A stretch of DNA of 56,219 nucleotides from the NCBI GenBank assembly GCA_020850325.1, contig JADZEW010000007.1, positions 1-56,219 of the forward strand, written 5' to 3'. Each line of letters begins with the position of its first letter. The stretch's first letter is position 1. The position numbers were made by a program, and so were the translations under genes. The notes under the pieces were generated by a model. The model had not been told where the DNA came from and did no database searches. It saw only the letters and a list, made by a program, of their open reading frames with translations. The DNA is from Methanoregulaceae archaeon. Its GTDB lineage: Bacteria; Armatimonadota; Fimbriimonadia; Fimbriimonadales; Fimbriimonadaceae. This document shows, piece by piece, positions 7,304 to 26,832 of the stretch.

Positions 7304-8203
7304 TTAGATCTCAGGCACGCCGAACAACCGCATCTCAATCTCGCCGTCTTGGCAGATCCACATCGGGAACTCGCCCGTGGTGCACGACGCGCCGAACTCG
7401 CCCGAGTTCGACATTGCGAGCACGACGCACATCATCTCGGTCGACTTTGGCTGCCGCCGGATCATTTGCCGGATCGTGGCGTCGCACGCTTCCTGAGGAG
7501 ACATCCCACCCCGCATGTACTCCACGGTGCGGAAGGACGCAGCCGCCTTCCAGAGCTCTTCGCCCCAGCCCGTCGCGCCTGCGCATCCGACTTCGTCATC
7601 GGCATAGATGCCCGCACCGACGATCGGCGAATCGCCGATTCGGCCCGGCATCTTCCAAGCCAATCCACTCGTCGACGAGGCCGCGACCACATGCGATGGA
7701 GCCTCCCAACCCAACACCGTCACCGTGTCGCCATGGTGCTCCTTATCGGAGAGCGCGTGGACGTACTCCTCGGTGCCTTCACGCGGCTTGTCGCGCCACT
7801 CCTCGTACCACCGCACGTTGTCGGTGGTCATCAGGTTGCGGACCTCGAAGCCCTTGCTCAGCGCAAACCGACGCGCCTGTTCGCCCGCCAGCATGACATG
7901 GGGGGTCTCTTCCAGCACCTTCCGCGCGACTGAGATCACGGGGACGATGCCGCGGACGCCGCAAACCGCACCCGCTTCTAAGTCGTGCCCGTCCATCATC
8001 GACGCATCGAGCTCGACCTCGCCGTCCGCGTTGGGAAGCGCGCCAAGTCCGATCGCAACGAGCGTCGGATCGAGTTCAGAAGCGGCAAGTCCAGACTCCA
8101 GCGCATCGCGCAGAGATCCTCCAGACGCGCGACGCTCCCAGGCCGCCTTGATCGCAACCTGGCCAGGCTCGCGCCATGTGGCAAGCAGAGTCGTCTTCGC
8201 CAT
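7304..8203 (-). CDS. N4-(beta-N-acetylglucosaminyl)-L-asparaginase
   Basis: N-terminal nucleophile hydrolase that splits the GlcNAc-Asn bond of glycoasparagines, releasing aspartate. The 299-residue precursor should cut itself between Asp159 and Thr160 in the sequence HHGDTVTVLG, which exposes Thr160 as the nucleophile. The beta-subunit then shows the family block STSGLAWKMPGRIGDSPIVGAG and the CAGATGWGE loop. No convincing signal peptide is visible ([14 protein letters not shown]), so a cytoplasmic location is likely. The start codon overlaps the aconitase stop by one base, so translation is probably coupled. Isoaspartyl peptidase activity is an alternative within the superfamily, but the motifs favour the glycosylasparaginase branch. 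Confidence 0.88.
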   Translation of the reverse strand: MAKTTLLATWREPGQVAIKAAWERRASGGSLRDALESGLAASELDPTLVAIGLGALPNADGEVELDASMMDGHDLEAGAVCGVRGIVPVISVARKVLEETPHVMLAGEQARRFALSKGFEVRNLMTTDNVRWYEEWRDKPREGTEEYVHALSDKEHHGDTVTVLGWEAPSHVVAASSTSGLAWKMPGRIGDSPIVGAGIYADDEVGCAGATGWGEELWKAAASFRTVEYMRGGMSPQEACDATIRQMIRRQPKSTEMMCVVLAMSNSGEFGASCTTGEFPMWICQDGEIEMRLFGVPEI

Positions 8204-10851
8204 CAGTTCGCCAAAAGCTGCCGCAGCACGTATTGGAGAATGCCGCCGTGGCGGTAGTACTCGAGTTCCTTCGGCGTGTCGATGCGCACCAGCACATCGA
8301 ACGCCTTGGTGTCTCCGTTGGCGACCGTAGCGCGCATGCGCAGCTTCTTGCCGTCGCGGAACTGACGATCCGCTTCGTAGGACAGGTCGAGCAACGAGTA
8401 CTCTTCGGTGCCTTCCAGCCCAAGACTCGCCGCGCTCTCGCCGGGCAGGAACTGGAGCGGAAGCACACCCATGCCGATCAGGTTCGAACGGTGGATCCGC
8501 TCGAAGCTCTCCGCGAGAACCGCCTTGACGCCCAGTAGGAACGTGCCCTTCGCCGCCCAGTCACGGCTCGATCCCGTGCCGTATTCCTTACCCGCGATGA
8601 CAAGGAGCTTGGTCTCGCGCCGGCGATACCGCTCGGCGGCTTCAAAGATGCTAACGACCTCGCCCGTCGGATGGTGGACCGTGAATCCGCCCTCGGTCTC
8701 CGGCGCAAGTTGGTTGCGCAGCCGGATGTTGGCGAAAGTGCCGCGAACCATGACTTCGTCGTGGCCACGGCGCGAGCCGTAACTGTTGAAGTCCTTCGGC
8801 ACGACGCCCCGACTCTGCAGCCACTCGCCCGCCGGCGAGTTCGCCTTGATCGCCCCCGCCGGAGAAATGTGGTCGGTGGTGATGCTGTCCCCGAGCAGCG
8901 CAAGCACCTGCATCGCGTTGAGATCTTGAATCTCTCGGGGAGCGTAGGCGGTCATGTCGTGGAAGTAGGGCGGGTTCTTGACGTAGGTCGACTCATCATT
9001 CCAGGCGAACCGATTGCCGCTCCCGCCGTCGATCTCGGCCCACTTCTCGTCGCCCTTGAACACGTCTTCGTACGATTCCACGAACAACTCGCGGCTGACG
9101 GCAGCTTCGATCATCGATGCGACATCCTCCTGCGACGGCCAGATGTCCTTGAGGAACACGTCGTTCCCTTCACTATCCTGACCGAGAGGGTCGTTCTGCA
9201 GGTTGATTTCGAGCGTGCCCGCGAGCGCATAGGCAACCACGAGCGGCGGCGACATCAGGTAGTTCGCCTTGACTTCCTGTTGGACTCGACCCTCAAAGTT
9301 GCGGTTGCCGCTGAGCACGGAGCACACGACGAGTTCCTCCTCTTGGATCTGCTTGCTAACCCATTCGGGGAGCGGTCCGGAGTTGCCGATGCACGTCGTG
9401 CAACCGTAGCCAACGACGTGGAAACCCACCTTCTCAAGATCTTCGAGGAGGTTCGCCTTCTTGAGATACTCGGTGACGACGCGCGAACCGGGAGCAAGCG
9501 ACGTCTTTACCCAGGGCTTGGGATGCAGGCCCCGACGGGCCGCATTTCGGGCGAGCAGCCCTGCCGCGACCATCACGGAGGGGTTACTCGTGTTTGTGCA
9601 GCTGGTGATCGCGGCGATCACGACGCTGCTGTGGGATAGCTTGTCGGGCTCAGGCGTGACGCCGTCAAGGGTCGGGAAAGCGGCGTGGAGAGATTCGCGC
9701 GCCAGTGCCAGCGGGATACGGTCTTGGGGACGCTTAGGACCCGCTACCGCCGGCTCTACTCCGGAGAGATCGAGCTCGAGGATGTCGGTGTAATCGGCTT
9801 CTGGCGTGTTCTCGTCATAGAACATGCCCTGCTCGCGGAGGTACGCCTCGACGAGTTGAATCTGTTCTTCTGAGCGGCCGGTGAGGCGGAGATAGCGCAG
9901 GGTGATGGCGTCAATCGGGAAGATGCCGCAGGTGGCGCCGTACTCAGGGGCCATGTTGGCGATCGTTGCGCGGTCGGCGAGCGGCAGAGTCAGCAGGCCC
10001 TCTCCGAAGAACTCGACGAACTTACCGACAACGCCCTTTTGGCGGAGCATCTCGGTCACGCGCAGGACCAGGTCCGTCGCGGTTGCGCCTTCGCGGAGCT
10101 TGCCCATCAAGCGGAAGCCAATGACCTGCGGAATGAGCATGCTGATCGGCTGGCCCAGCATGGCCGCCTCGGCTTCGATGCCCCCCACTCCCCAGCCGAG
10201 GACGCCAAGGCCGTTGACCATCGTCGTGTGGCTGTCCGTGCCAACCAGCGTATCGGGATAGGCCACGCCTTCATCGTTGACGAACACGACCCGCGAGAGG
10301 TATTCGAGGTTGACCTGGTGGCAGATTCCGGTGTTCGGCGGGACCACCTTGAAGTTCTTCAGGGCCGACTGGCCCCACTTCAGGAACTGGTACCGCTCAT
10401 AGTTGCGCTCGAACTCGAGGTCGCGATTGATCAGCAGGGCGGCTTCGCTGCCGTAGGCATCGACCTGGACCGAGTGGTCGATGACGAGTTCGACGGGCTG
10501 GAGCGGGTTGATCTTGGCGGGGTCACCGCCGAGTTCGGCCATCGCGTCGCGCATGGCGGCGAGGTCGACTACGCACGGGACACCGGTGAAATCTTGGAGC
10601 AAGACACGTGCGGGCATGAAGGCGATCTCATGGCTGGGTTCCGCCTTCGCGTCCCAGTTGAGAAGCGCTTCGACGTCTCCCTTGTCAACCGTGCCGTTAC
10701 CTTCGCATCGAAGGAGATTCTCCAGGAGAATCTGGAGAGAGAAGGGCAAGCGGTCGAGCCGGTGTCCCTGTTCGACGAGCGTTTTGAGGCGGTAGACGGT
10801 GAGCTCTTTGCCCGCCATCGAGAGGGTCGCACGTGCCTGAAAGGAGTTCAT
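8203..10851 (-). CDS. acnA: Aconitate hydratase (AcnA type)
   Basis: Citrate to isocitrate isomerase of the TCA cycle. The 882-residue protein has the AcnA/IRP domain order: an N-terminal catalytic part with [27 protein letters not shown], the iron-sulfur ligands in [11 protein letters not shown] and [12 protein letters not shown], and the swivelling C-terminal domain with [34 protein letters not shown] and [16 protein letters not shown]. All three cluster Cys are present. Length fits the family (about 890). The ATG at 10851 gives [22 protein letters not shown], normal for AcnA. It shares a transcript with the glycosylasparaginase, the two genes overlapping by one base. Confidence 0.96.
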
Positions 10852-10903: not shown

Positions 10904-10945
10904 ACTCCCCCTCCCCGCAACCGGGGTTCGGGGGCTGGGGTCAAC
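10904..10945 (+). repeat. Inverted repeat flanking the RHS locus (left arm)
   Basis: ACTCCCCCTCCCCGC ... GGGGGCTGGGG ... GTCAAC. The same blocks occur in reverse at 12953-12998, so the two copies bracket the RHS region. The unit resembles common GC-rich intergenic hairpins. Confidence 0.55.
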
Positions 10946-11534
10946 GTTCGACCTGGCACCCCGCCGACAAGACCCTACCCGTGGCTGGCTCGTAATACCT
11001 CGCCCGCATGTAGATCAACGAGCTCTCCGAGTCGGATACGTGCCCAATCGAAGCGACATACCCTTGCTTCGGATCAGCAGAAGATCCTCCACTACGCACG
11101 GAGCCCCACACATCATAGGTCTTCCAGTTTCCGGTGTCGTAGCCCGTGCCATCGCGAGTCAGCAACGCTCGCATGTTGCCATGCCCGTCATACATCGGGT
11201 AGGCCAGGGTGGTACTCCCCGACTCCGTCCGGGCGATTCGATCAATCCCTCTTGCGCCGAGGATGTACCGGTTGACCTGAGTCACCGTCCCCGAAGGGTT
11301 GTAGTCGTCTTCACATCTCATCTGCCCATCGTAATAATAACGCGTTGTCGGCTGGTTCGTCGCGTAATTGACGTCGTAATGCCCCGAAGGGTTGCCCATG
11401 GTGGTTCCCGGACCGGTGGTTGTCCACACGTAGGTGGCCCCTTCGACCTTCTCGATGCGCTGGCCGTCGGCTCGGTAGGCATAGCCCGCGCCGGTGGAGG
11501 GCTGGGCCAGGAGGGTCATGCGGTTGAGGACGTT
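10941..11534 (-). pseudogene. Displaced RHS core fragment
   Basis: A remnant of an RHS repeat protein. From NVLNR (about 11534) to YYEPATGR it matches residues 73-252 of the neighbouring RHS protein, including YAYRADGQRIEKVEG, RYYYDGQM, LGARGIDR, YDGHGN, TYDVWGSVRSG and the core-ending SLIYMRARYYEPATGR. After ATGR it diverges (VLSAGCQVER, then stop) where a tip domain should begin, so the tip is lost. Upstream of NVLNR the frame runs into the 44-residue ORF at 11573-11707, and no start or ribosome site fits. The likely history is an orphan RHS C-terminal module displaced by recombination and then trimmed. Confidence 0.8.
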
Positions 11535-11572
11535 GCCTCTTGGCAGCACGATAGAGCCATTTTCAGATTCGT

Positions 11573-11707
11573 CTAGGATGATGTGAGATAGAGCCACAAT
11601 GCCACACCACCTAAAAGCACAAACCCTAGGATTCGGATCACAATCTCATCCAGTAAAGCATCCAAGAGAAGAGACCACCAGCGTGACTTGGTAGGCTTAG
11701 TATCCAT
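11573..11707 (-). CDS. 44-residue membrane protein, candidate RHS immunity protein
   Basis: A small gene that starts inside the last codons of the RHS gene (the ATG lies within ...TATGGATACTAA), in another frame. A strong GGAGGA sits 9 bases before the ATG. The product begins MDTKPTKSRWW, has a short amphipathic stretch (SLLLDALLDE) and one transmembrane helix (IVIRILGFVLLGGVALWLYL). Overlap with the toxin-bearing gene, ideal ribosome site and membrane character match what is known of immunity genes beside RHS or contact-dependent toxins. By hand count 57 of the 120 bases at 11581-11700 are G or C, low for this window. The immunity role is inference; no homologue is recognised. Confidence 0.6.
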   Translation of the reverse strand: MDTKPTKSRWWSLLLDALLDEIVIRILGFVLLGGVALWLYLTSS

Positions 11708-12926
11708 ACAGTAGTTCCTCCATGATCAACACTGCGTTACCCATGTGCGCAGCCAACACACGGCCAATGGGGCCATTGAGCTCTCTGCGTTCATCATGAA
11801 AGGGCTGGGAACCTGTAAACAGCACTTTTCGTCCCGCTGCCGCTGCTGCTCTCGCATAGAGGTGCTTTCCCAGCTCAATGCGATTCATCGCTCGGATGGC
11901 TTGCCCCATGGTCATTGTAACTTTCAATGCTTCTGTGAAGTGCTTCACCCAAGCTGCTCCAATAGCACCTGTAGCCATCGAAATCGCTACCTCTCCCAGG
12001 TCAATGCTACCGTACAGCAAGTATTGCATCCCGGCACTAAACAAGCCACTCACGAGGGCCCCAGCTACCAGATGCCAGAATTTGCCACTGAAGTCCGCTC
12101 GATCAATCGGGTTACTTCCGCAGTAAAGAAACCAATTGGCCCCATCCCTAGCGGGATCCTCGGAGATGAACCTCCCCGTCGCGGGTTCGTAGTATCTCGC
12201 CCGCATGTAGATCAGCGACGATTCATCATCCGCGACATGCCCAATCGAGGCGACATACCGGCTCTTCGGATCTCCAGTGGCGGAACCTGATCGCACGGAG
12301 CCCCAGACGTCGTAGGTGCGCCAGTTCCCCGTGCCGTAGCCGGTTCCGTTCTTGGTGAGGATGGCGCGGCAGTTGCCGTGGCCATCGTAGATGGGATAGC
12401 CGTGCGTGGTGGCGCTGTTCTCGGTGATCGAGATTCGGTCGATGCCCCGCGCGCCGAGGACGTTGCGCGTCACCTTCGTGATTGTGCCCGAAGGGTTGTA
12501 GTCGTCTTCAAATCCCATCTGCCCATCATAATAATAACGCGAAGTGGGTCGGTTTTGGGCATAATTCGTGTCGTATTGGCCAGATTCTCGGCTGCCGGAC
12601 CACGAGAACGTGATCCCTTCCACCTTCTCGATGCGCTGGCCATCGGCTCGGTACGCATAGCCCGCTCCGCCGGTGGGCTGGGCGATGAGGGTGGCCCGGT
12701 TCAGCACGTCCCAGTCGTAACGCATGGGGTGGGCGTGGTTGGCGGTGGAGGCATTTCGGCGGGTGCGGTTGCCGAGGATGTCGTGTTCGTACGTCCACGC
12801 GCTCAGCGAACCGCCCGAGACGAGCGGCGGCGAGGTGGTCATGCGATTGAGGTGGAGAGCCTGTCGCGGGACGAACCCACCGCGACGCTCCGTGTCAATC
12901 CGAGTTCTGAACTCTTCAATATTCAA
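11697..12926 (-). CDS. RHS repeat-associated core protein with variable C-terminal tip (N-terminally short)
   Basis: Polymorphic-toxin type protein. Of 409 residues, about 1-80 are RHS repeats (AWTYEHDILGNRTRRN, MRYDWDVLNRATLIAQ) and 81-257 the RHS core, ending in RARYYEPATGRFISEDPARDG and NPIDRADFSG. Residues 282-409 form the tip, with two hydrophobic segments (HLVAGALVSGLFSAGMQYLLYG; EVAISMATGAIGAAWVKHF) followed by a charged end. Complete RHS proteins are usually over 1000 residues with a signal or export module. This frame starts abruptly without a ribosome site, so it is probably the surviving C-terminal part of a larger gene or an orphan module. The tip matches no toxin family known to me; the hydrophobic pairs suggest membrane activity. 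The stop overlaps the candidate immunity ORF. Confidence 0.8.
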   Translation of the reverse strand: MNIEEFRTRIDTERRGGFVPRQALHLNRMTTSPPLVSGGSLSAWTYEHDILGNRTRRNASTANHAHPMRYDWDVLNRATLIAQPTGGAGYAYRADGQRIEKVEGITFSWSGSRESGQYDTNYAQNRPTSRYYYDGQMGFEDDYNPSGTITKVTRNVLGARGIDRISITENSATTHGYPIYDGHGNCRAILTKNGTGYGTGNWRTYDVWGSVRSGSATGDPKSRYVASIGHVADDESSLIYMRARYYEPATGRFISEDPARDGANWFLYCGSNPIDRADFSGKFWHLVAGALVSGLFSAGMQYLLYGSIDLGEVAISMATGAIGAAWVKHFTEALKVTMTMGQAIRAMNRIELGKHLYARAAAAAGRKVLFTGSQPFHDERRELNGPIGRVLAAHMGNAVLIMEELLYGY

Positions 12927-23187: not shown

Positions 23188-23868
23188 CTACCGGGTCGGG
23201 GGAGCGGGACCGGTTGAGTCCTTGCTTAACTTCGCTCTTCGCTCAGCTTCAGTCCGAAGTGAGTTGATCTGTTGATCCCACGACACGGATACGCCTGGCT
23301 TGCTCGACGGGAAGTGTTTCAAACCAAGGGCCGTCAACTTCTTCCGATCCCGCTCAGCGGCGAAAGCAGCGGCACTATAGGGTAAGGCGTCGACTCTTCC
23401 TGCTCGCAGCCCTTCGAGTAGCCATGCGTTTGAGAGGGTCGCGTAGAGCGTGTTCCAATAGCCCCACTTCTTCTCCACAGCTTGAAATGCGACGCTCACG
23501 CCTACGCTGAGCTGAATCTTGTTCACCCAGTACATCCGCTCACACGAGCCGACGCCTTGATCGAGATTCAAGCTCATCTGGTACTCACCAACTCCACCTC
23601 GAAACGCTGGCGAGAGGTACTTGGTGAAGACCTCTCGCAACTCATCGTTCGAGAGGCCATAGCGGCTCGCTTCCCCGGGGGGAAGCGATGCCCTCCACTT
23701 TACGAAGTCGCCCTTCTCAAGTGCAATAAGAGACTCCTTAGCGAGGTCAGCCAAATCGTGACGTCCACGCGCTACGTGGTAAGGTTCGCGGTTAGGCGAT
23801 CGAAGAAGAAGAACCGTTAGGGCAATCATCGCGATCGCCACCGCACCAAGCGTGAGTTGTCGCCTCAT
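23188..23868 (-). CDS. Hypothetical membrane-anchored protein
   Basis: No family recognised. The 226-residue protein has an N-terminal signal anchor (LGAVAIAMIALTVLLL) and an external helical domain with KESLIALEKGDFVKWRASLPPGEASRYGLSNDELREVF, a pattern of small lipid- or peptide-binding folds, then a basic C-terminus ending PAPPTR. It overlaps the upstream Cys-rich gene by four bases and is the last gene of the operon starting at 25669. Confidence 0.65.
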   Translation of the reverse strand: MRRQLTLGAVAIAMIALTVLLLRSPNREPYHVARGRHDLADLAKESLIALEKGDFVKWRASLPPGEASRYGLSNDELREVFTKYLSPAFRGGVGEYQMSLNLDQGVGSCERMYWVNKIQLSVGVSVAFQAVEKKWGYWNTLYATLSNAWLLEGLRAGRVDALPYSAAAFAAERDRKKLTALGLKHFPSSKPGVSVSWDQQINSLRTEAERRAKLSKDSTGPAPPTR

Positions 23869-24305
23869 GGTGCGGAAGGTGGCGAACCCGAACAGCTATA
23901 CTCGCCTGGCCCGCTACAGTCACCCTGTGCGACAAACGGAGTGCAGTAAGCGGGGTTCTGCGCTCGCGTCGTTCGGATTTCCCTTAGAACAGCCTGAACT
24001 CTGGTGTTACCTTCTGGATAGTAGTAGGAGTATGTGGTTATGCAGCACCAGTTCGATGATTCAGTGGAAGCATTTTGGCACCACTGGTAGGATCCGAAGT
24101 AAACATCATTGTCCTTAGCTTTGCCCCAATTTACGTTGCAGTAAATCCCTTCAGCGCATCCGCCCTTTGAGGGGTTCGATAGGTCAAGCATGTTTGACGA
24201 CAATGCTTTCACGCCACCGTCAAGCTGCAATTGGCTCCGACGGTACATCACGAGAAGCATAACAATCCCCACAAGGCAGACTGCCGCAATCACCCATCTC
24301 GCCAT
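23865..24305 (-). CDS. Cys-rich exported protein, paralogue B
   Basis: No family recognised. The 146-residue protein has an N-terminal membrane segment (WVIAAVCLVGIVMLLVMY) and a Cys-rich domain nearly collinear with paralogue A: GCAEGIYCN, FGSYQWCQNAS, NWCCITTY, YYYPEGNT, VLREIRTTRAQNPAYC, GDCSGPGEYSC. Eight conserved Cys suggest four disulfides in an exported domain. The ATG at 24305 overlaps the stop of the preceding paralogue by one base; an upstream in-frame start at 24344 would lie inside that gene. Tandem duplication is evident. Confidence 0.7.
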   Translation of the reverse strand: MARWVIAAVCLVGIVMLLVMYRRSQLQLDGGVKALSSNMLDLSNPSKGGCAEGIYCNVNWGKAKDNDVYFGSYQWCQNASTESSNWCCITTYSYYYPEGNTRVQAVLREIRTTRAQNPAYCTPFVAQGDCSGPGEYSCSGSPPSAP

Positions 24306-24676
24306 TAACCAGGTCCGGGCGGCATGGGCGCCGTGAAGACGCACGAGTAAACGCCAGGGCCATCACAGTTGCCGTTTCCGACGTAAGGATAGCAATAGGC
24401 TGGATTCTGTGCCTTAAACGTCCGAATCTCACGCAACACGGGAGCTACGTTGGTGTCGCCTTCAGGGTAGTACCAGTTGTAGGTGGTGATGCAACACCAA
24501 CTGGACGACTGTGTCGAGGCGTTCTGGCACCACTGAAACGTGCCAAAGAATAAGTCATCTTCCTCCGCAGTGCCGACATTTAGGTTGCAAGCAGTTCCGG
24601 CGCACCCGGATGACGGGAGCTGGGCGTGTGCGATGAGGCCAGTAAGCAGGCCAGCTACTAGAATGACTTTGATCAT
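24305..24676 (-). CDS. Cys-rich exported protein, paralogue A
   Basis: No family recognised. The 123-residue precursor has a cleavable signal peptide (MIKVILVAGLLTGLIAHAQ) and a domain with the spaced motifs GCAGTACN, DDLFFGTFQWCQNAS, WCCITTYNWYYPEGDT, VLREIRTFKAQNPAYC and GNCDGPGVYSC. AAGGAG lies 8 bases before the ATG at 24676, which fixes the start. That ATG overlaps the stop of the upstream gene in ATGA. Its partner at 23865-24305 shares all eight Cys. Confidence 0.75.
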   Translation of the reverse strand: MIKVILVAGLLTGLIAHAQLPSSGCAGTACNLNVGTAEEDDLFFGTFQWCQNASTQSSSWCCITTYNWYYPEGDTNVAPVLREIRTFKAQNPAYCYPYVGNGNCDGPGVYSCVFTAPMPPGPG

Positions 24677-25293
24677 ATTGGTTTCTCCTTGATCGGCATC
24701 GACTTCCACCAGGGTGCGTCTTGGTCTTCCCAATGCTCTCTAGGCACGGTGAGCCAATACTCCTTGCTTCTGTCCCAAAATCTGCTGTGCGGAATCCACC
24801 AGGCACCGAGTTGGCGCTTTCCCATCAATGTGCCTCCTCGATTCATCTCACTGGTGCGATAGAGATAGTTGTCGAGTAATGGTGGAACGTCGTCGTTATG
24901 GTTGAGACACGCCCAGATCACCGCGTAATCGCCTTCGGATTCGCGCTTTACCCTAAAGCTCGGAGTAAGAACTTCGCCGTAGACCGCTCGCTGTTCACGC
25001 GGCAGGTACATGTAGGGCATCTTCGCGAAAAATCTATGCCACGGTTCTTCCTCGCAGGGGTCGTCGAACATCTCCTCGACCATGTCAACGGCAACGGACA
25101 ATGGCGGAAACCCCAAGAGATCTCCGTTCTCGCCGTGATCCTGCTGATAGATTGAAGTGGCCTGCCAAAGCTTCTTCAAACTCTGCGTGCAGACCACTTC
25201 CTGCTGGTTCACCCTGGCGCATCCCATGACGACAAGTCCCAATCCCCACGCACCGAAGACAGCCGCACTAGCGCCCAGCAAGAAACTCTTCAT
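24673..25293 (-). CDS. Exported or lipoprotein, pseudopilin-like segment
   Basis: The 206-residue protein has an N-terminal hydrophobic stretch ending in VVMGC, a possible lipobox. Just after it comes VCTQSLKKLWQATSIYQQDHGENGDLLG, which resembles the [18 protein letters not shown] block of the pseudopilin at 41477-42253. The rest (PWHRFFAKMPYMYLPREQRAVYGEVL, Trp-rich C-terminus) is unfamiliar. No FTLIELL cleavage motif is present, so it is not an ordinary pilin. The ATG at 25293 follows GGAGACCT and lies inside the end of the thioredoxin-like gene (26-base overlap). Confidence 0.65.
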   Translation of the reverse strand: MKSFLLGASAAVFGAWGLGLVVMGCARVNQQEVVCTQSLKKLWQATSIYQQDHGENGDLLGFPPLSVAVDMVEEMFDDPCEEEPWHRFFAKMPYMYLPREQRAVYGEVLTPSFRVKRESEGDYAVIWACLNHNDDVPPLLDNYLYRTSEMNRGGTLMGKRQLGAWWIPHSRFWDRSKEYWLTVPREHWEDQDAPWWKSMPIKEKPI

Positions 25294-25669
25294 AGGTCTC
25301 CTCAATGCGTTGCAAGCTGACTTTTCCATCGAGGCTCACAAAACCAAGTCGTGGCACGACCGCTTCTGGGTGGAACGAACTATAGATGTCAGGCGCAAGA
25401 ACTGCAGTTGGCAATCCATTCTTCATAACTGGCGCCGGCGTCCCCCGATCCACGTACACGACCAAAGCCGGCCGACCGCCGATCTTTGCGGCCAGGCGGG
25501 ACAGATCGGTGCAACCAGAACATTCTCCGGCAAAAACGAGCACCCGACCTTTCGCGGCTTGCATGAACGCGGACGGCAGTGCATGCATACGAGTGTCAGA
25601 TTCGCATCCTGTCGCAATCGATACAAACAGTATTAATGCCCACCCGCAACTACCCGTTCGCGCACGCAT
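25268..25669 (-). CDS. Thioredoxin-like lipoprotein with CSGC motif
   Basis: The 133-residue protein has a lipoprotein signal (WALILFVSIATGC) and a thioredoxin-like domain: GRVLVFAGECSGCTDLSRLA with a CxxC, then PALVVYVDRG, TPAPVMKNGLPTAVLAPD (a cis-Pro-like region) and LGFVSLDGKVSL. It could be an envelope thiol-disulfide protein that acts on the Cys-rich proteins encoded downstream; this is inference. It is the first gene of a five-gene minus-strand operon, and its ATG sits 6 bases after a perfect TATAAT, implying a leaderless mRNA. Confidence 0.7.
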   Translation of the reverse strand: MRARTGSCGWALILFVSIATGCESDTRMHALPSAFMQAAKGRVLVFAGECSGCTDLSRLAAKIGGRPALVVYVDRGTPAPVMKNGLPTAVLAPDIYSSFHPEAVVPRLGFVSLDGKVSLQRIEETYEEFLAGR

Positions 25670-25675
25670 GAACGT

Positions 25676-25709
25676 ATTATATCGCGGGGGGGGGGGGGGG
25701 GCGTGTCAA
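25676..25709 (-). promoter_or_regulatory. Promoter with homopolymer in the spacer (candidate phase-variable)
   Basis: On the minus strand a perfect TTGACA (25709-25704) and a perfect TATAAT (25681-25676) are 22 bases apart, and 16 of those bases are an unbroken C tract (G tract on plus, 25686-25701). Optimal spacing would be 17, i.e. 11 Cs. The predicted +1 falls on the A of the start codon at 25669. Confidence 0.7.
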
Positions 25710-25776
25710 GAGTCTTTGAAAAAAATAGTCACCAGCAGCCTGCTGGTGACTTGATAGAACAAGGTTACGTGACCCT

Positions 25777-26832
25777 TTAGTTAGCGTCGCCGCGGGAGCC
25801 GGTCAGGCCCTCGAGCTTGTTCTCGGCCATGAACCGCTTGTAGGCGGCCTTCCACTGCTCTTGGAATGCGGTCCGATTCACATCGACCTTACTGTCCTTG
25901 AGCTTCGTGAGCACCTGACGATTGATGTCCTTGCCCTGAGCGCCCTTCAGCTTAGCCATCTGGCGTCGGAGAGCTTCCTTCTTCGTATCGTCCATGGTAA
26001 TCGGCTTCTCGGCCGTCTTCTTGTGGACGTAGAACTTGCCCCAACCATCGACGAACCGAATCCAATCGGTCGTTTCGCCGCCGTTGAAGTTGGCGATGGC
26101 CTTTTGCACGTCCTGAGGCAGCGACGTGATGGTGGGAGGCCCGGCGGCACTCAGCTTTCCGTTGTTGGCCTTCGCGTCCGGTGCTTCCGAGTAGCGAAGG
26201 GCGACCGTCGTGAAGCTCTGGCCGCTGGAGAGTTCTCGATCGACGGCGTCCTTCGTGCGTAGATCGCTCACCTTGATGTACGAGAGGTCGGCCCGAGCCG
26301 GATCGATAAACTCCTTGGGATTGTCCTTGACGTACTTCTCAGCGTCCGCAAGCGTGACCGTCACGTCCTTGGTGAGCATCTTCTCTTGGATGATGTCCAT
26401 GGTGATGCTCTGCCGGATCATGTCGAACGTGAGACCCCGGGCCGTGAGCGCCGTGAGGAAGTTGGGCTCCAGCTTCTTGCGGAACTCCAGTTCCTTGTTG
26501 ATCTCGTCCTCGGTCGGATACATCTGCTTGTCTTTGGCCAGCTGCATCGTGACCTTCTGAGCGATCAGATCCTGCATAGCTTGGAAGCCGAGAACGCCTT
26601 CGGTCCGCAGACTTGCGACTCCGTTCGCGGTGATGACTCGGACCTCGGGTTTGAACTCGAGGTAGCTGTAGTACTCTTTCTCGGTAATCGGCTCGCCGTT
26701 GATGACGGCGATGACGTCGGCGCCCTTACCGCAGCCGCTGACTCCAAAAATCAAACCGCAGGCGGCGAACCCTGCGATGGCGCCGATCATGAGACTGGTG
26801 TTATGCGTCTTCAAGCGATTGCCCCCGAACAT
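25777..26832 (-). CDS. Parvulin-type peptidyl-prolyl isomerase, lipoprotein
   Basis: Envelope folding factor of the SurA/PrsA type. The 351-residue protein has a signal ending GVSGC (lipobox), a helical chaperone region starting VIAVINGEPITEKEYYSYLEF, a degenerate parvulin domain with ADLSYIKVSDL, GQSFTTVALRYSEAPDAKANNGKLS and GGETTDWI, and a basic helical tail. The lipid anchor makes it PrsA-like. It is a paralogue of the exported protein at 13164-14114, which shares AVINGE and the same plan. The ATG at 26832 follows AGGA. Confidence 0.84.
   Translation of the reverse strand: MFGGNRLKTHNTSLMIGAIAGFAACGLIFGVSGCGKGADVIAVINGEPITEKEYYSYLEFKPEVRVITANGVASLRTEGVLGFQAMQDLIAQKVTMQLAKDKQMYPTEDEINKELEFRKKLEPNFLTALTARGLTFDMIRQSITMDIIQEKMLTKDVTVTLADAEKYVKDNPKEFIDPARADLSYIKVSDLRTKDAVDRELSSGQSFTTVALRYSEAPDAKANNGKLSAAGPPTITSLPQDVQKAIANFNGGETTDWIRFVDGWGKFYVHKKTAEKPITMDDTKKEALRRQMAKLKGAQGKDINRQVLTKLKDSKVDVNRTAFQEQWKAAYKRFMAENKLEGLTGSRGDAN

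Follow-up and report, generated by a model that had tools for sequence, protein, structure and literature searches.

What does an operon of overlapping genes for exported and membrane-anchored proteins do, when no profile library recognises its products and 16 consecutive cytosines fill most of its promoter spacer? The question is raised by a locus in a 56,219-nt stretch of DNA (contig JADZEW010000007.1 of assembly GCA_020850325.1, positions 1 to 56,219, forward strand; hereafter the window), which is deposited as Methanoregulaceae archaeon and is placed by GTDB in the Fimbriimonadaceae (Bacteria; Armatimonadota; Fimbriimonadia; Fimbriimonadales); named relatives of the sigma-factor gene beside the operon point to the same family. 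The operon occupies 23188–25669 on the minus strand and belongs to a set of five cassettes carried by this genome (A, that of the window, to E; Table 1) that share the same kinds of genes, namely thioredoxin-like, pseudopilin, cysteine (Cys)-rich exported and membrane-anchored. Judging from sequence features, it is likely that the operon is a phase-variable envelope cassette which exports disulfide-rich proteins with the help of pseudopilin and thioredoxin or VKOR partners, and the proposed switching is well supported by the anatomy of the promoter.

On the operon strand, the elements follow one another as TTGACA, CG, C16, GCGA, TATAAT, ACGTTC and the ATG of gene 1. Shine-Dalgarno-like sequences were seen at genes 2 and 3 and none at gene 1, and since the ATG of gene 1 lies so close behind TATAAT its transcript is likely leaderless. 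A terminator-like stem-loop after ppiC ends just ahead of the promoter and parts the operon from its upstream neighbour; the initial annotation had the genes right and overlooked both this stem-loop and the promoter with its C16 run. Slippage of the run during replication would change the spacing between the two hexamers: the 22 bp of the assembly exceed the spacing of a good sigma-70 promoter, while a shorter run would bring the spacing to about 17 bp, so that the operon would be expressed in only some cells at a time. C16 is the longest G/C run in the genome, where 8 runs of at least 10 nt occur in 3.52 Mb and an order-3 Markov model expects 0.004 runs of at least 14 nt.

Phase variation through homopolymers has been described mainly in bacteria adapted to a host. 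At porA and opc of Neisseria meningitidis a change in run length reportedly alters hexamer spacing and hence transcription (work attributed to van der Ende in 1995 and Sarkari in 1994). The window promoter is like these two in that its −35 and −10 hexamers flank a homopolymer, and unlike them in driving a five-gene operon predicted to be leaderless, in its environmental armatimonadotal host genome and in its 22-bp assembled spacer. Neisseria repeats are treated in PMC5084427, which cites both of these works, and PMC1891110 describes a long C-stretch in the promoter region of the Bordetella genes fim2, fim3 and fimX, which encode exported surface proteins and whose transcription is affected by the length of the stretch. 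The run of cassette C, ahead of a TATAAT, resembles these Bordetella promoters, whereas the cassette products are not fimbrial subunits. No report of phase variation in Armatimonadota was found in the full-text literature, a search whose coverage leaves out most subscription journals.

Promoter hexamers also adjoin G/C runs elsewhere. Among 97 distinct interior runs of at least 9 nt gathered from the fetched loci, TTGACA lay wholly within the 16 nt upstream of 9 tracts (0.26 expected), and TANNNT-N5..7-ATG started no more than 9 nt downstream of 7 (0.35 expected). In a subset of 88 tracts, which drops the window (where the pattern was first seen) and loci L066–L071 (fetched by the pattern itself, in which TTG precedes the run and TANNNT follows it), the counts were 5 (0.23 expected, P = 4.6e-6) and 6 (0.32 expected, P = 1.1e-6), respectively. 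Both exact consensus hexamers occur together at the window alone among the 97 tracts. G-run promoters of the form TTGAC(A/T)-spacer-TANNNT-N6/7-ATG were noted at L267 (G169:C4), L265 (G167:C1), L110 (G023) and L271 (G169:C9), directly followed by genes for small or mid-size proteins, mostly with a signal peptide; on the strength of these, the putative switch is broader than the Cys-rich cassettes. At L119 (G012:C2, 9884 and 9995) a G20 and a C12 of opposite orientation are separated by about 100 bp and are possibly a divergent phase-variable pair.

Run lengths differ between paralogues. Two adjacent paralogous genes for exported proteins in G169 have near-identical promoters with G17 in one and G9 in the other, their TTGACT-to-TAGCGT spacers being 24 and 16 bp, and three paralogous promoters in G012, of the form TTGACATA-C(n)-..TCCTTATCCT, carry C10, C12 and C11. 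The latter (G012:C16, at 53312, 61999 and 65340; L066, L067) precede large exported proteins, two of which are near-copies of about 1240 aa, and no Cys-rich cassette is present there; they are putative phase-variable promoters outside such cassettes. Elsewhere, the run is inside the first gene, where switching would be by reading frame. A C12 run separates two parts of one redox gene, lying in different frames, in both G046 and G146, and in G058 (G15, G10) and G059 (G12, by-eye reading of the sequence) the run comes after, or close upstream of, a homologous Cys-rich coding sequence. Small sigma-factor-like genes, recognised by eye, are found at L148 (G058; 7647–8270 and 11930–12619) and L154 (G059; 9183–9905), upstream of these run-bearing Cys-rich genes, and are possible dedicated regulators. 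Ahead of the G164 cassette (L263, G164:C94, 9916–9952) a C23-NN-C12 tract has an assembly gap within the run, as would be expected if its length were unstable. Taken together, we infer with good support that slippage would alter spacing in cassette A, G012 and G169, and frame in cassette E, G046, G146 and G058.

The cassette also varies as a unit. In G001, the sister species, about 100 bp are all that separate ppiC from the aldehyde dehydrogenase gene behind it, and identity over the aligned part is 99.6% for the sigma factor, 88% for ppiC and 97% for the aldehyde dehydrogenase. In window positions, the homology ends near 25793 and picks up again near 23202; the 2.59 kb between, which comprise the promoter and all five genes, are therefore present or absent as one piece, whether through gain or through loss. 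The stop codon of gene 5 falls in resident sequence.

The four gene junctions overlap by 26, 4, 1 and 4 nt from gene 1 to gene 5, and all five products are exported or membrane-anchored, as initially annotated; gene 1 has a lipobox and the CSGC motif, and gene 5 an N-terminal anchor. G+C content at third codon positions is 0.54–0.66 in genes 1–5 vs. 0.78–0.85 in the neighbouring genes. Genes 3 and 4, described from the start as tandem paralogues with eight conserved Cys, are 54–56% identical, and all eight Cys of gene 3 (C25, C30, C50, C61, C62, C95, C104, C112) are kept in gene 4. Gene 2 had been called a pseudopilin-like lipoprotein: it has a lipobox and aligns with the cassette pseudopilins past the N-terminus (hhalign E = 1.5e-5, Prob 79.5, 77 columns), but the prepilin N-terminal motif (Glu before the hydrophobic helix) is absent, LVVMGC standing in its place, and no Pfam match was obtained. 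Gene 5 is homologous to the last genes of cassette E, G146 and G158 (hhalign E = 2.2e-6, 184 columns); the last gene of cassette C was tried as a further relative and dropped, as neither BLASTP nor hhalign supported it. Gene 1 matches gene 1 of cassette E around the common CxxC (BLASTP E = 0.002), and no thioredoxin-clan match above cut-off was found for it in Pfam or NCBIfam. Structure prediction was unusable for gene 1 (AlphaFold2, predicted local distance difference test (pLDDT) 36) and too low for a disulfide pattern of the eight-Cys pair (pLDDT 42).

That the families were unfamiliar agrees with the searches, since none of the five proteins has a match in Pfam, NCBIfam, PADLOC or PHROGs at curated cut-off or E < 0.03. 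Direct searches of 291 genomes of the phylum gave no convincing homologue of genes 1, 3, 4 and 5. For the Cys-rich pair, no match at E ≤ 0.001 was found in the other 290, and matches in 11 further genomes (E 0.014–0.097) were taken as noise; the pair was not found in plasmids, genome contigs or viral contigs, and its phage matches were not convincing (16 records, best E = 3). PDB sequences, compared with genes 1 and 3 only, gave nothing usable. Elsewhere in the window, two tandem near-copies on the minus strand (10941–12926, C-terminal region) are presumably RHS/YD-repeat-like.

Table 1. Coordinates of the operon, its promoter and the run-associated cassettes
Feature	Position	Strand	Description
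Whole cassette	23203..25792	-	present here, absent in sister species G001
Gene 1	25268..25669	-	133 aa, CSGC thioredoxin-like lipoprotein; lipobox ..SIATGC; CSGC at residues 50-53
Gene 2	24673..25293	-	206 aa, pseudopilin-derived lipoprotein; lipobox ..LVVMGC replaces prepilin motif
Gene 3	24305..24676	-	123 aa, exported eight-Cys protein; signal looks cleavable
Gene 4	23865..24305	-	146 aa, eight-Cys paralogue of gene 3; N-terminal anchor
Gene 5	23188..23868	-	226 aa, membrane-anchored protein; N-terminal anchor
-35 hexamer TTGACA	25704..25709	-	exact consensus
Homopolymer G16 (+), C16 on operon strand	25686..25701	.	within 22-bp promoter spacer; proposed slippage switch
-10 hexamer TATAAT	25676..25681	-	exact consensus, 6 nt ahead of gene 1 ATG
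Terminator-like stem-loop after ppiC	25727..25751	-	11-pair stem then ATTTTTTTCA, a T-run
Cassette A	window		C16; the five-gene operon
Cassette B	C8:80061		C13; Cys-rich, anchored protein, pseudopilin
Cassette C	C8:166173		G12, 19 bp ahead of a TATAAT; pseudopilin, Cys-rich, anchored protein
Cassette D	C16:12087		G14 within first gene; membrane protein with CxxC pairs, Cys-rich, pseudopilin, lipoprotein
Cassette E	C35:68595		G9, 7 nt past start codon; thioredoxin-like CASC protein, pseudopilin, Cys-rich, anchored protein
Run-associated cassettes, other genomes			G001 (orthologue of C), G008, G036, G046, G058, G059, G129, G141, G146, G158 (two), G164, G169, G172

All five cassettes of this genome have a G/C run of 9–16 at the front, and 4 of its 8 runs of at least 10 nt are at cassette fronts (A–D), the other 4 lying within or close to single genes for exported or other products. 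Other runs of this genome (G000) that lie in reading frames of exported proteins are those at G000:C30:86753 (L050, C12 in an exported-protein frame that is broken in the assembly), G000:C35:183760 (L051, C11 just past a lipobox) and G000:C5:49022 (L045, G10 within a signal-peptide protein). A profile (A2) built from eight cassette pseudopilins of four genomes gave 43 hits in this genome, the last of them gene 2 of the window (E = 0.006). Of the best 30 pseudopilin loci, just 4 combine a Cys-rich exported neighbour with a G/C run of at least 8 nt, and the other 26 have neither; three of the 4 were already known from their runs and included in the profile, and cassette E is new. Its gene order is that of the window minus the second Cys-rich copy. 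The gene flagged fifth, at L226, proved to be a Cys-containing pseudopilin in its own right and has no run, and no further cassette was found in 11 regions that extend L224 and L226 and cover the remaining profile hits.

Pseudopilins of the cassettes are like the PulG type of type II secretion systems and type IV pili in having an N-methylation motif (Pfam N_methyl E = 1.6e-8, cassette D); gene 2 differs by its lipobox, and the cassette pseudopilins differ by adjoining a Cys-rich gene. A C-x2-H motif was seen by eye in most of them. PMC4072686 gives 79 PulG-type pseudopilin genes for Fimbriimonas ginsengisoli. In a lineage this rich in pilins, as the 43 profile hits also illustrate, and with a pseudopilin-type protein in nearly every cassette, the Cys-rich protein could be a minor pilin-like adhesin at the tip of a phase-variable pilus or fibre, carried on the cassette pseudopilin and the type IV pilus or type II secretion system of the genome. 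We regard this as a tentative option, somewhat short of an even chance, because the pseudopilin-like proteins of the window, of one G158 cassette and of G164 have no prepilin motif and therefore could not join a filament by the usual route.

A further 13 genomes of the order have similar cassettes at runs, some of them partial (that of G059 by eye only). Runs of at least 12 nt are present in 27 of the 61 genomes searched as relatives and in 51 of the 109 genomes of the order, this genome being counted in both. The order thioredoxin-like, pseudopilin, Cys-rich, anchored recurs in G146 and in one G158 cassette, and the other G158 cassette and G164 share with the window the pseudopilin-like protein without prepilin motif; the weaker cassettes are those of G141, where the run lies past the Cys-rich end of the operon, and G172, in which no pseudopilin was seen. 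Redox partners are clearest in G046, where VKOR (Pfam E = 2.9e-14) and DsbA/Thioredoxin_4 (E = 1.1e-6) domains, the combination of disulfide-forming VKOR-DsbA pairs, stand beside the Cys-rich protein and flank a C12 run; unlike such pairs, the G046 domains are split by C12 in the assembly, and the window has only a small thioredoxin-like lipoprotein. CxxC proteins are paired with a Cys-rich protein in G146, G158, G141 and cassette E. These pairings lend indirect support to the initial suggestion that the thioredoxin-like protein may shape the disulfides of the eight-Cys pair. Pfam backs a redox role firmly in G046 only: the Redoxin match of G158 is below cut-off (E = 0.0028), and the CxxC membrane proteins of D, G141 and G164 are VKOR/MauE-like by eye, with no Pfam model in agreement. 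The suggestion that the genes form one envelope machine is supported by the same gene types standing in the same order in cassette E, G146 and G158; that they keep company in related genomes thus holds by gene type, but not by sequence.

An antagonism cassette could also account for exported proteins that are small, rich in disulfides and fast to diverge, for the anchored tandem paralogue, for a last gene that is anchored and constant in position, and for presence or absence at an empty site. The Cys-rich protein would then act as a secreted toxin or bacteriocin, and protection of the producer would fall to the anchored last protein or to gene 4. However, the operon has no dedicated protease or transporter, and no toxin, bacteriocin or RiPP (ribosomally synthesised and post-translationally modified peptide) family was matched. 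The sole NCBIfam match of genes 3 and 4, FlmA_fam_RIPP to gene 3, is below cut-off (E = 0.049, 13.8 bits vs. a cut-off of 30), and 0 of ten other cassette Cys-rich proteins match any NCBIfam family; such a role is accordingly unlikely. As for anti-phage defence, 0 of 10 proteins match PADLOC models at E ≤ 0.1.

The association of runs with Cys-rich genes was quantified in two sets of loci, both of which left out runs near contig starts, "near" a run meaning within 2.5 kb of it. The first comprised 61 loci (6 + 55), of which 43 had a run of at least 12 nt at a distance of 300 nt or more from either end of the locus and 18 were dropped; 9 of 13 Cys-rich exported genes were near runs, with 28% expected (p = 0.0026; circular-shift permutation by gene p = 0.009). 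In a replication with unchanged definitions on 35 new loci (34 usable) the count was 8 of 9 (p = 2.5e-4; permutation p = 0.00045), and both sets together gave 17 of 22 (permutation p = 5e-5 by gene, 5.5e-4 by region). As the 9 near genes of the first set include one VKOR and one Cys-containing pseudopilin, and the 8 of the replication one VKOR-like gene (G141), the count is one of Cys-rich membrane or exported products. Cys-rich genes with a pseudopilin no more than 1.8 kb away formed 8 pairs near runs and 0 far from them, and 60 control loci around the sigma gene (890 kb) held 1 Cys-rich exported gene and 1 run.

Several observations weigh against a family of switched cassettes. An order-0 model expects 33 runs of at least 10 nt in this genome, where only 8 occur, so the excess exists under the order-3 model only. 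The runs of cassettes B and C lie outside any recognisable −35/−10 pair, and with one genome searched per species the length comparison covers paralogues, not strains of one species. The likeness of gene 1 to other thioredoxin-like genes is weak (E = 0.002–0.015; profile comparison E = 0.015), and Cys-rich proteins from different cassettes mostly fail to align with each other. B, C, G008, G036, G129 and G172 show no redox gene, and therefore an oxidation step is not general. By region, the excess of the first set is not significant (permutation p = 0.14), and pseudopilins alone are not enriched at runs (10 near, 16 far, p = 0.17). Chance alone was also considered as an explanation of the G/C runs; order-0 composition leaves runs of 10–12 nt possible, and thus the case rests on where the runs lie, at hexamers and cassettes, and not on their number.

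That composition permits many runs, and that many runs of the draft relatives are at contig ends, where poly-G artefacts are possible, would suit a stable five-gene envelope operon with a C16 that is neutral or a sequencing artefact and switches nothing. We hold this to be quite improbable, because C16 is bounded by unique sequence and exact promoter hexamers, runs specifically adjoin TTGACA, TANNNT-N6-ATG and Cys-rich cassettes, and a cassette at a run is also present in the single-contig genome G008.

For a phase-variable export cassette, a division of labour may be proposed with modest support: the Cys-rich protein would be the cargo, the redox partner, where present, would make its disulfides, and the pseudopilin-type and anchored proteins would export or anchor it. 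The cargo would cross the inner membrane via Sec, be oxidised with the help of a thioredoxin-like or VKOR/DsbA partner, and be displayed at the cell surface or set free from it via the pseudopilin-type and the anchored last protein of the cassette. The fast divergence of the cargo and the coming and going of the cassette are in keeping with frequency-dependent selection on a product that is surface-borne or secreted, with phages, grazers, rival strains or adhesion as fitting candidate selective agents; together with the proposed random switching, they suggest an interaction with other organisms.

More broadly, the Fimbriimonadales may hold an undescribed class of contingency loci, a proposal whose chances we put at about even: slippage-switched cassettes that come and go, each with its own fast-evolving disulfide-rich cargo, a pseudopilin-type exporter or anchor and often a redox partner, would form a repertoire (at least 5 in this genome), with a random subset displayed or secreted by any one cell. 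Since nature provides a putative on/off switch as well as empty sites, the role of the unnamed Cys-rich families can be put to the test. If the proposal is true, an environmental lineage with homopolymer switching and leaderless consensus promoters would offer a new system in which to study selection for random switching outside a host, and to ask whether phages, grazers or rivals are the selectors there.

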